In this document: piece by piece, positions 32,194 to 44,168 of the stretch
How positions within the stretch are numbered: position 1 is the first letter of the stretch
How the letters are laid out: every line of letters starts with the position of its first letter
Source: Ramlibacter lithotrophicus
Lineage (GTDB): Bacteria; Pseudomonadota; Gammaproteobacteria; Burkholderiales; Burkholderiaceae_C
Length of the DNA: 64,000 nucleotides
NCBI RefSeq assembly: GCF_012184415.1
Contig: NZ_VTOX01000002.1
Coordinates: forward strand, 434,001-498,000
Reading direction: 5' to 3'
The notes under the pieces: model-generated
What the model was told of the DNA's origin: nothing
The model's database searches: none
The model's input: only the letters and a program-made list of their open reading frames with translations
Position numbers and translations under genes: made by a program

Positions 32194-32811
32194 CTAATGC
32201 AGCCGCCGCGGCCGGCGGCCGCCGGCGTGGCCCGAACCGCCGCCGCGTGGCGGCTTGCCGATCTCCAGCGAGTTCACGAGGGCGTCGAAGCGCTGGCTGA
32301 ACAGCTTGTCGATCTCGGCGACGACCCCGCCCAGCTCGGCGCCGTCGAAGTGGCGCTCCATGAGGTTCACGACGTCCTCGACCAGCAGGTCGCGCTGCAC
32401 CTGCATGATCGCCGCCGGCGTCGGTCCCACGAACAGCATCAGGAAGTCGTCTCGCGCCTCTGCTTCCGGCGGCTCCTCTTCCTCGTCGAACTCGGCGTCG
32501 TAGAACGTCACCTCGATCGCGGCGCCTTCCTGCGACAACTCGTTGAGGCTCATGCACATCTCGTCGAGCGACTGGCGGAAGTCCTCGTCGCCGGGCACCG
32601 TCCAGCACATGCGAAGCACGTGCTCGGGTGCATCGAACTTGATGCCGGGTTCTTCCTCGTAGGCGCTCTCGGCGCCGTCGGCCAGCGAGCGCGCGCCGGC
32701 GTACGTCCACAGCGGCTTGAGCGCGTCCTGCAACTGGGCATAGGTCACGTCGGCGCGCAGTGGCACATCGCCATGGACATGGATTTCGAACGGAGCGTTG
32801 TAGCGTGACAT
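32194..32811 (-). CDS. Uncharacterised acidic protein
   Basis: The 205-residue soluble protein starts MSRYNAPFEIHVHGDVPL and contains a well-formed alpha/beta body (YAQLQDALKPLWTYAGARSL, HVLRMCWTVPGDEDFRQSL) followed by an acidic loop (FDEEEEPPEAEA) and a helical region (VQRDLLVEDVVNLMERHFDG). The last 20 residues are Gly/Arg rich (GGGSGHAGGRRPRRLH) and look disordered. No known domain was recognised. It stands alone between the MFS gene and the tRNA repeat region. The start at 32811 is chosen from the conserved-looking N-terminus; the frame remains open into the repeat array upstream. Confidence 0.6.
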   Translation of the reverse strand: MSRYNAPFEIHVHGDVPLRADVTYAQLQDALKPLWTYAGARSLADGAESAYEEEPGIKFDAPEHVLRMCWTVPGDEDFRQSLDEMCMSLNELSQEGAAIEVTFYDAEFDEEEEPPEAEARDDFLMLFVGPTPAAIMQVQRDLLVEDVVNLMERHFDGAELGGVVAEIDKLFSQRFDALVNSLEIGKPPRGGGSGHAGGRRPRRLH

Positions 32812-32968
32812 GGGATCGGATTGTCTCCCGTTGGCAAGGCACTGCTCCGGGCGCCCCGGTACAGCTCGCGCGGGGCGGACTCTTGGGCAAGATTGTGCCA
32901 CCGCCGCGGCGGCGAGGAATGCCACGCCGCCGCGCGTCTGCGCCAGCCGGTAACGCGTGGCGGGCGCC

Positions 32969-33324
32969 GTGGTGCGTCGACCCGGGATCGAACCCGGCGC
33001 GCTCGCGCGCCTTTCATGACGGCCGAGGCGGCGTGCCGGTTCGATGCCGTGCAAGACGTGGTGCCTCGACCCGGGATCGAACCCGGCGCGCTCGCGCGCC
33101 TTTCATGACGGCCGAGGCGGCGTGCCGGTTCGATGCCGCGCAAGACGTGGTGCCTCGACCCGGGAGCGAACCCGGCGCGCTCGCGCGCCTTTCATGACGG
33201 CCGAGGCGGCGTGCCGGTTCGATGCCGCGCAAGACGTGGTGCCTCGACCCAGGATCGAACCCGGCGCGCTCGCGCGCCTTTCATGACGGCCGAGGCGGCG
33301 TGCCGGTTCGATGCCGCGCAAGGC
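32969..33324 (-). repeat. Tandem 89-bp repeats (4 copies) derived from the 3' end of tRNA-Leu
   Basis: Four head-to-tail units start at 32969, 33058, 33147 and 33236, exactly 89 bases apart, with no spacers and only scattered substitutions. A fifth unit start at 33325 is the real tRNA-Leu gene. In minus-strand sense each unit ends with about 26 bases of the tRNA (T-loop, acceptor strand and CCA). It also holds a GGCGCGC/GCGCGCC hairpin and an inverted T-arm-like block (GCCGGTTCGATGCC on the plus strand). The array lies directly downstream of the tRNA, as the rtT repeats do behind E. coli tyrT. The interval 32812-32968 between it and the uncharacterised gene holds no feature I can support. Confidence 0.9.
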
Positions 33325-33325
33325 G

Positions 33326-33418
33326 TGGTGCCTCGACCCGGGATCGAACCGGGACGCCGCCTTTCGGCTGAGCGGCGGATTTTAAGTCCGCTGTGTCTAC
33401 CTGTTTCACCATCGAGGC
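33326..33418 (-). tRNA. tRNA-Leu (anticodon TAA)
   Basis: The acceptor strands GCCTCGA and TCGAGGC pair perfectly and CCA is encoded. The anticodon loop reads CTTAAAA with anticodon TAA, and a long variable arm (class II tRNA) is present, together with a T-loop TTCGATC. Total length is 93 bases with CCA. It is the upstream neighbour of the 89-bp repeats that copy its 3' end. Confidence 0.93.
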
Positions 33419-33478
33419 CGCAGGCGATTGTGATTCAAAACGGAATCAGCTTCGGCGCGGCAGCGGCGCGCAAGGCAA

Positions 33479-33509
33479 ACAGCCCCGGCACTTGTGGTGC
33501 CGGGGCTGT
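33479..33509 (-). terminator. Hairpin downstream of tRNA-Cys
   Basis: A 13-bp perfect stem (ACAGCCCCGGCAC with GTGCCGGGGCTGT) has a five-base loop, 5 bases past the tRNA-Cys 3' end in its direction of transcription. Only TTT follows, so it is a strong hairpin with a weak U-tract. Confidence 0.65.
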
Positions 33510-33513
33510 CATC

Positions 33514-33587
33514 TGGAGGCGCGACCCGGAGTCGAACCGAGCTGAACGGATTTGCAATCCGCTGCATAACCGCTTTGCTATCGCGCC
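33514..33587 (-). tRNA. tRNA-Cys (anticodon GCA)
   Basis: The acceptor GGCGCGA pairs with TCGCGCC and CCA is encoded. The anticodon stem-loop GGATTGCAAATCC carries GCA. The 74-base length is normal. Its 5' end lies one base from the U-run of an upstream terminator-like hairpin. Confidence 0.95.
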
Positions 33588-33617
33588 GAAAAAAAGGGAA
33601 GCGCGAGCTTCCCTTTT
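33588..33617 (-). terminator. Rho-independent terminator between tRNA-Gly and tRNA-Cys
   Basis: In minus-strand sense, AAAAGGGAAGC and GCTTCCCTTTT form an 11-bp stem with a four-base loop, followed at once by a run of T. The run ends one base before tRNA-Cys. Confidence 0.7.
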
Positions 33618-33636
33618 GCCGACCTTGTCGGAAAAT

Positions 33637-33681
33637 GCAGCGCTGCTGCTTTTTCCAACCGTCGAAAAGCAGCATCGCTGC
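33637..33681 (-). terminator. Long imperfect hairpin after tRNA-Gly
   Basis: The arms GCAGCGCTGCTGCTTTTTC and GAAAAGCAGCATCGCTGC pair over about 18 bases with one mismatch and an eight-base loop. It lies 11 bases past the tRNA-Gly 3' end, and the minus strand continues with ATTTTCC. It is probably the first transcription stop for tRNA-Gly. Confidence 0.5.
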
Positions 33682-33692
33682 CTTTCTGAAAT

Positions 33693-33768
33693 TGGAGCGG
33701 GCAAAGAGTCTCGAACTCTCGACCTCAACCTTGGCAAGGTTGCGCTCTACCAACTGAGCTATGCCCGC
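33693..33768 (-). tRNA. tRNA-Gly (anticodon GCC)
   Basis: The acceptor GCGGGCA pairs with TGCCCGC and CCA is encoded. The anticodon arm CAACCTTGCCAAGGTTG carries GCC, and the D-arm and T-loop (TTCGAGA) are canonical. Total length is 76 bases. It follows lon by 49 bases and has its own promoter. Confidence 0.96.
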
Positions 33769-33780
33769 ATCGAGCCTCGA

Positions 33781-33810
33781 ATTATAGCGTAGTTTTTCCG
33801 CCGTCCGCAA
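33781..33810 (-). promoter_or_regulatory. Sigma-70 promoter of tRNA-Gly
   Basis: On the minus strand, TTGCGG (33805-33810) and a perfect TATAAT (33781-33786) are 18 bases apart. The predicted start is about 6 bases ahead of the mature tRNA-Gly. The whole promoter fits in the 49-base gap after lon. Confidence 0.7.
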
Positions 33811-33817
33811 CAGCGCT

Positions 33818-36256
<2,439 letters not shown>

Positions 36257-43928: not shown

Positions 43929-44168
43929 GTCAGTCTCCGCCGAGCCGCCTCAAGGAGACTGAAGCCCCCTTGGGGGGCAGCGAACGCCAGTGAGCGTGGG
44001 GGCACACATTCTTCCGCCGAGCCGCCTCAAGGAGACTGAAGCCCCCTTGGGGGGCAGCGAACGCCAGTGAGCGTGGGGGCACACATTCTTCCGCCGAGCC
44101 GCCTCAAGGAGACTGAGGCCCCCTCGGGGGGCAGGGAACGCCAGTGAGCGTGGGGGCACATGTCAGTC
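43926..44168 (-). repeat. Array of three 77-bp dispersed repeat elements with SD-bearing hairpin
   Basis: Units start at 43936, 44013 and 44090 (77-base period; the third is slightly divergent). The array is bounded by a direct CATGTCAGTC (43926-43935 and 44159-44168). Each unit has a GCCCCC/GGGGGC hairpin. The first unit also forms a perfect 9-bp stem TCAGTCTCC/GGAGACTGA (43930-43938 with 43954-43962). In minus-strand sense the second arm contains the Shine-Dalgarno GGAG of the HAD gene, and CAT at 43926-43928 is its start codon. A further copy lies at 58646-58722. The rest of the gap to hemH (44169-44182) holds the hemH ribosome site. Confidence 0.85.

Follow-up and report, generated by a model that had tools for sequence, protein, structure and literature searches.

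What are the four near-identical units that follow a tRNA-Leu(TAA) gene in Ramlibacter lithotrophicus, and do they represent a passive repeat or a source of small RNAs? The locus lies in a 64,000-nucleotide stretch of one contig; this stretch is called the window here. A sequence-only reading of the window had described an array resembling the rtT repeats of Escherichia coli. Predictions from TRF and ARAGORN bear out that the array is real, with four units of exactly 89 nt located directly 3' of the tRNA gene. The relevant features are given below in the order of transcription.

33693..33768, minus strand: tRNA-Gly(GCC), first in the tRNA cluster (ARAGORN)
33514..33587, minus strand: tRNA-Cys(GCA) (ARAGORN)
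33326..33418, minus strand: tRNA-Leu(TAA), origin of the repeated tail (ARAGORN; Rfam tRNA, 53.6 bits)
33237..33325, minus strand: unit 1, 89 nt; inverted arm 33293-33316, GC hairpin 33263-33278, tail copy with one mismatch in the last 25 nt
33148..33236, minus strand: unit 2, 89 nt; inverted arm 33204-33227, GC hairpin 33174-33189, tail copy exact over 18 nt
33059..33147, minus strand: unit 3, 89 nt; inverted arm 33115-33138, GC hairpin 33085-33100, last 25 nt identical to the tRNA
32970..33058, minus strand: unit 4, 89 nt; inverted arm 33026-33049, GC hairpin 32996-33011, tail copy with one mismatch at position 7 from the end
32812..32969, minus strand: gap of 158 nt between the array and the next gene
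32194..32811, minus strand: DUF6806 gene (205 aa plus stop; Pfam PF20621, E 2.4e-87), directly 3' of the gap

TRF reports a single array at 32968-33350 (period 89, 4.3 copies, 97% matches), and its score of 695 rules out a chance repeat. The units abut without spacing, the first beginning at the base right after the CCA of the tRNA, and any two of them differ at 1-4 of 89 positions. In the direction of the transcript each unit consists of an inverted arm, a GC hairpin (GGCGCGCGAGCGCGCC) and, copied in direct orientation, the CCA-bearing 3' end of the tRNA. The earlier figure of about 26 tRNA bases per unit, CCA included, is right to within a base, given single mismatches in the last 25 nt of units 1, 2 and 4; counted from the 3' end of the unit, identity to the tRNA is unbroken for 25 nt (unit 3), 18 nt (unit 2), 14 nt (unit 1) and 6 nt (unit 4). 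The statement that each unit starts with the tRNA tail is true of the plus strand only, as in the direction of the transcript the tail is the end of the unit. Absent from that description was the inverted copy of the variable arm/T-arm region, found in every unit (24 nt, 92% complementary to the tRNA), by which a unit can fold on itself. The window also holds a second tandem array of a different kind at 43936-44160 (period 77, 2.9 copies, 97% matches; CCCCTTGGGGGGCAGCGAACGC).

When the 43 tRNAs of the same genome are compared with the 150 nt downstream of each, Leu(TAA) ranks first (direct score 23, inverted 19; shuffled 95% level 9.5). For inverted copies, Leu(TAA) at 19 and Ser(CGA) at 18 stand out from the next best tRNA at 9, with shuffled 95% levels of 7.5-10. 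A query with the whole array found no second place in this genome, and in a plasmid search (13 records) the best places among the matches listed fall within the first 98 query bases, i.e., the tRNA.

Minimum folding energies for units 1-4 are -49.0, -44.2, -48.5, and -42.8 kcal/mol, with z-scores against shuffled sequences of -2.6, -1.1, -2.5, and -1.8, units 2 and 4 thus folding only weakly better than their shuffles. The minimum-energy folds of units 1-3 pair the copied acceptor strand and leave ACCA free. When the tRNA is folded together with unit 1, the minimum-energy structure pairs the inverted arm with the T-arm of the tRNA itself. This raises the possibility of a switch in the pre-tRNA, in which the arm of unit 1 would delay folding of the tRNA and so tune the supply of tRNA-Leu(UAA) or the DUF6806 mRNA. 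The extent of complementarity given above suits such a role, as does the retention of an inverted copy without a direct one at 5 of 46 tRNA-Leu loci in the genus, but units 2-4 each carry an arm and copy of their own that a switch would not need, and energy folding is blind to co-transcriptional order and tRNA modification. We regard this explanation as very improbable.

The sequence-only reading had treated rtT as a lone case linked to the stringent response. According to the excerpts of PMC8144298 (2021) used here, rtT is one of 22 tRNA-linked repeats (TLRs) found at ten E. coli loci, in which 18-19 bp at the 3' end exactly match that of the tRNA or rRNA lying upstream (Egan and Landy 1978 and Rudd 1999, as cited there), and the claim linking the tyrT-tyrV repeat to amino acid starvation was retracted in 1994. 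The same excerpts describe TLRs, a kind known since 1978, as having no known function until three rRNA-linked ones, RrA, RrB, and RrF, were found to bind Hfq and CsrA; these are processed RNAs of E. coli rRNA operons, located between two terminators, with RNase E suggested for RrB. They also note that the inter-terminator stretch of rrnB is widely used on cloning plasmids. RtT is also mentioned in the portions of PMC4986893 and PMC2965389 consulted.

The window units share with TLRs their position directly 3' of a tRNA, their tandem arrangement and a 3' end copied from that of the upstream tRNA. Immediate placement downstream of a tRNA or rRNA gene in the same operon applies to the array, and the 18-19 bp identity is present, strictly so in 2 of the 4 units (units 2 and 3). 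They differ in that the body is shorter and of another sequence, the copied tail starts 5' of the T-loop, and the loop itself is uninterrupted. With the RtT family of Rfam (RF00391) they have in common an inverted T-arm copy and a direct CCA tail copy in each unit, which upholds the earlier description of the anatomy as rtT-like, but the repeat unit there is 178 bp rather than 89. There is no RtT match in 32500-34000 at E up to 1, the 45-bit cut-off not being reached, nor in ten further loci with units of this Leu type at E up to 0.1. As judged from its make-up, then, the window array is a short TLR-like variant with a body different from that of rtT. On whether it formed independently of rtT the evidence points both ways: its body is unmatched by either Rfam RtT or our own rtT-type model (R1, described below; best score 13.2 bits, on the other strand), whereas its plan and placement are the same.

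RrA, RrB, and RrF, which are shown to be transcribed and processed, likewise repeat the 3' end of an upstream stable RNA, but they lie behind 5S rRNA. We found no mirrored arm behind E. coli rrnB (best inverted match score 6.5) and no R1 match there. The stretch between its terminators (L382, 537-650) includes a core whose sequence is of the rtT type, along with 13 nt copied from the 5S 3' end.

To what extent are such units found in relatives? Within the genus we scanned 46 tRNA-Leu loci, comprising 43 for TAA, fragments included, and 3 for CAA, and excluding L001 as a duplicate and L037, L039, L040, and L041, which have no usable tRNA-Leu end. A direct copy (score >=20) is present in 7: the window, L003 (2 units), L018, L030, L032, L033, and L035 (2 units, behind Leu(CAA)). 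The other 39 have none, which makes the array dispensable. Inverted copies reach p <=0.013 (300 shuffles each) at 12 of the loci. The comparison of copy number across relatives that the sequence-only reading had suggested thus yields 0, 1, 2, or 4 units. A gene-based search returned 544 relatives of the DUF6806 protein, of which 80 were kept, 64 of these with tRNA-Leu(TAA) upstream; 4 of the 64 have a direct copy, namely two genus genomes already counted, L108 (Curvibacter sp.), and L129.

A second model, R2, built from nine Leu-type units, matched 22 of 399 genomes of the family at 1e-4, our own genome among them. One locus was viewed in each of 15 of the 21 other genomes, giving 10 units, 3 unrelated-looking matches without a tRNA, and 2 tRNA-Leu genes with a long insertion. 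Two of the ten new units are behind Leu(TAA), including L306 (three units at 104 bp plus a fourth, weaker one); the other eight are behind Leu(CAA). Altogether, Leu-type units are present in 18 genomes besides the window, behind Leu(TAA) or Leu(CAA), in 1-4 copies. The order-wide R2 count (90 of 349 genomes at E 0.01) was set aside: among 33 loci returned, 10 of 16 checked for tRNAs were tRNA-Leu genes, and none of 8 viewed in detail (six of them overlapping the 16) was a unit.

Insertions into tRNA-Leu(TAA) itself were also seen. L324, L326, L248, and L040 are such genes or parts of genes with a long insertion in the anticodon region that resembles a group I intron, although Rfam at gathering score calls no intron at these places. 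The gene is split near anticodon position 41-42 by inserted DNA in L041 with L033 (G048:C64) and in L040 with L030 (G026); the two parts in G048 are ~16 kb apart, with an intact tRNA-Leu(TAA) near the inner end.

An alternative to an RNA role is that the units are passive, produced by tail duplication and an inverted copy through template switching at the tRNA, and kept close to the tRNA in sequence by recombination. Their patchy occurrence in the genus and their near identity within the array agree with this, as do the loci with inverted but no direct copies. Against it, the GC hairpin, which is not tRNA-derived, keeps its pairing through two-sided changes in 5 of 6 pairs, and units of the same plan are met again behind two Leu tRNAs across several genera. 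We consider passive duplication unlikely on balance, although it deserves to be taken seriously.

Pairing between the arms was assessed across loci. For 28 Leu-type matches, one of which is a tRNA gene, pairing amounts to 95.3% vs. 87.0% in shuffled data, and pairs changed on both sides number 7 vs. 2.7, slid versions reaching 12-51%, all counted on an alignment that had been fitted to the structure. At 19 Leu-type loci, both the direct and the inverted arm fit their own tRNA better than permuted tRNAs (0 of 20000 each). Within Leu(TAA) this is true of the inverted (p 0.0002) and direct arm (0 of 5000); within Leu(CAA) it is true of the direct arm (p 0.0078), the inverted arm not reaching significance (p 0.108). 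L307 and L129 have a decayed tail copy that other tRNAs fit equally well. For the rtT type, the P1/P2 pairs of 46 units are 93.0% paired vs. 82.7% shuffled, with 9 vs. 5.1 pairs changed on both sides and slid versions at 39-64%. Across the loci compared, the two arms are shown to be complementary to each other and to follow in sequence the tRNA they sit behind, and each arm is apparently kept fitted to its partner by selection or by copying. An excess of G.U over A.C cells is expected where RNA is the form under selection. Counted once per locus, the rtT type has 21 against 9 and the Leu type only 6 against 4; together these lean weakly toward RNA, the small Leu-type margin telling against an RNA role for the window array.

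The E. coli tyrT/tyrV repeats are built on the same plan: an inverted arm (GGGGAAGGATGAGAA..), a copy of the T-stem, a core, and then AATCC..CCA. The model R1 was made from two E. coli Tyr units and four Ramlibacter Ser units. Class-wide it matched 54 of 369 genomes; within the genus the figure was 2 of 60, and across the phylum 20 of 339. Ten of the phylum genomes, all of family f245 outside the class, give candidate matches at 36-55 bits. RF00391 matched 60 of 340 class genomes at 0.001, with 20 above the cut-off, gave no match in our own genome, and among 14 named controls recognized E. coli only. These searches rule out a single E. coli oddity with one analogue, as the kind is widespread. 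A search of a phage collection with the consensus core returned 5 records, of Salmonella and Escherichia.

Both models mostly place units behind tRNAs. R1 identified 46 units in 34 chosen sources, 42 of which have a same-strand tRNA upstream, and 38 of the 42 fit that tRNA best; among 30 RF00391 loci, partly the same places as those of R1, a tRNA is upstream in 25 and fits best in 23 of these. When 105 units from 48 genomes are reduced to a single entry for each combination of genome and tRNA (78 loci, with one place entered twice under none), the upstream tRNA is Ser in 35, Gln in 17, Tyr in 9, Arg in 3, Val in 1, and none in 13. Among the Arg cases, L349 has the tail of its own tRNA at its end, whereas the other two do not seem to. 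Nearly all tRNAs upstream of the rtT type are Ser, Gln, or Tyr, those of the short type being Leu. Repetition of the trailer after the unit is seen at many rtT-type loci, and a terminator was flagged before the unit in 11 of 34 by a simple scan with no chance control. Body similarity between E. coli rtT and the Ramlibacter Ser units is not significant in 5 of 6 cross pairs, and their link consequently rests on the plan, the arm motif and the finding that RF00391 matches 17 of 18 third loci (E 0.1), six above its cut-off.

Two rtT-type arrays are present in our own genome. One is behind Ser(CGA) (L076 = G000:C5, minus strand, ~1497-1113; ~176 bp x 2.2, TRF 91% matches). The other has Ser(GGA) ends (L205 1694-2040 = G000:C1 ~361.2-361.5 kb; 163 bp x 2, TRF 96% matches) and lies ~15 kb from the Ser(GGA) gene at 346.3 kb. 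Between that gene and the array is a phage-type integrase (PF00589, PF22022, PF13356; L205 253-1599, minus strand), and the 15-kb stretch at G000:C1 ~346.4-361.2 kb looks like an integrated island.

Attachment sites of islands that target tRNA genes run from the T-arm to the CCA. The copies described here span the same part of the tRNA, and the units might accordingly be minimal integrative elements of DNA that use the tail copies as attachment sites. Their movement or amplification would depend on a tyrosine recombinase provided in trans, which might work on folded single strands. Consistent with insertion, the sequence 3' of the unit in L033 and L030 closely matches that 3' of the tRNA in the unit-less L012 and L026, and both the island between Ser(GGA) and its array and the clustering of rtT-type cores by genome (see below) would fit mobility. 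However, units occur almost only right behind tRNAs on the same strand (42 of 46), their targets are mainly Ser, Gln, and Tyr, the repeated trailer in many rtT-type loci fits tandem duplication, and the G.U excess in the rtT type leans to RNA. An 89-nt unit is too short to encode a recombinase, and none was tied to the units in this analysis. We therefore judge a DNA element of this sort to be quite improbable.

Core similarity was compared among 59 rtT-type loci of 42 genomes. The 21 same-genome pairs average 0.311 vs. 0.152 for all pairs, a value reached in 0 of 2000 label shuffles, in contrast to pairs sharing an amino acid (0.140; 1820 of 2000) or an anticodon (0.148; 1282 of 2000); these shuffles left out loci without an assigned tRNA, as well as L283 and L367. 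When the letters of each core are shuffled, the excess is near zero (mean 0.008, max 0.027, vs. 0.159 observed), and composition is thus not the cause. Same-genome pairs range from 0.89, for Gln(TTG)/Val(GAC) of G074, down to 0.01, with 9 of 21 under 0.25; the two G074 units have nearly one core, each with its own tRNA tail. A first core extraction (29 loci, 4 same-genome pairs) had shown nothing, and the extraction rule was then loosened, after which 14 of 105 units were still without a core.

Across Gammaproteobacteria, likeness of cores by genome and not by tRNA suggests that cores spread or undergo conversion inside a genome while their ends are adapted to the tRNA in question; either gene conversion between units or copying of a core with refitted ends would yield such clustering. 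One tentative extension, which we hold possible but at well under even chances, is that a TLR is a two-part element, in which a self-copying structured core would pass between tRNA genes of one genome and the arms, tail and mirror, would be rebuilt from the new host tRNA. The Leu array of the window would then be a second design of the same plan.

For the window array, the explanation we prefer, giving it somewhat better than an even chance, is that four short TLRs in the 3' trailer of the Gly-Cys-Leu cluster are co-transcribed, folded, and cut at their tRNA-like 3' ends to release RNAs of ~89 nt. The array would be transcribed together with the tRNAs, because no intrinsic terminator was found before or after it in a consensus scan of the minus strand over 32500-34000. 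Each unit would form a hairpin ending in CCA. Its tRNA-like 3' end may be recognized by trailer-processing enzymes of the tRNA pathway (perhaps RNase E), and RNAs of unit size would come off as do RrA, RrB, and RrF. Release of small RNAs at each CCA, as the sequence-only reading had envisaged, is plausible given those processed counterparts. The fit of both arms to their own tRNA, the two-sided pair changes and the ten new family loci speak for this explanation; the weak folds of units 2 and 4, the inverted arms behind Leu(CAA), the decayed tails of L307 and L129 and the dispensability of the array speak against it. Unequal recombination between tail copies would allow the array to grow and shrink. 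The terminators flagged ahead of rtT-type units are reminiscent of the arrangement T1-repeat-T2 in rrnB, in which the RNA would be supplied by read-through.

A trailer with a role of its own has been described for the E. coli glyW-cysT-leuZ operon, whose 3'ETS-leuZ acts as a sponge (PMC7154689, in the part consulted). The window cluster has the same Gly-Cys-Leu(TAA) order of tRNAs in an operon, again with the feature in the 3' trailer of the last tRNA. The E. coli leuZ trailer is short and is not known to carry repeats. Searches of the open-licence literature returned no report of Leu-type units, of a mirrored arm that tracks its tRNA, or of the clustering of cores by genome.

What is new is a second TLR design, located behind Leu tRNAs, together with comparative evidence suggesting that the sharing of rtT-type cores follows the genome rather than the kind of tRNA. 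TLRs as a kind gain a testable rule, namely that their arms complement each other and follow the host tRNA, and the origin and spread of these repeats become directly testable.
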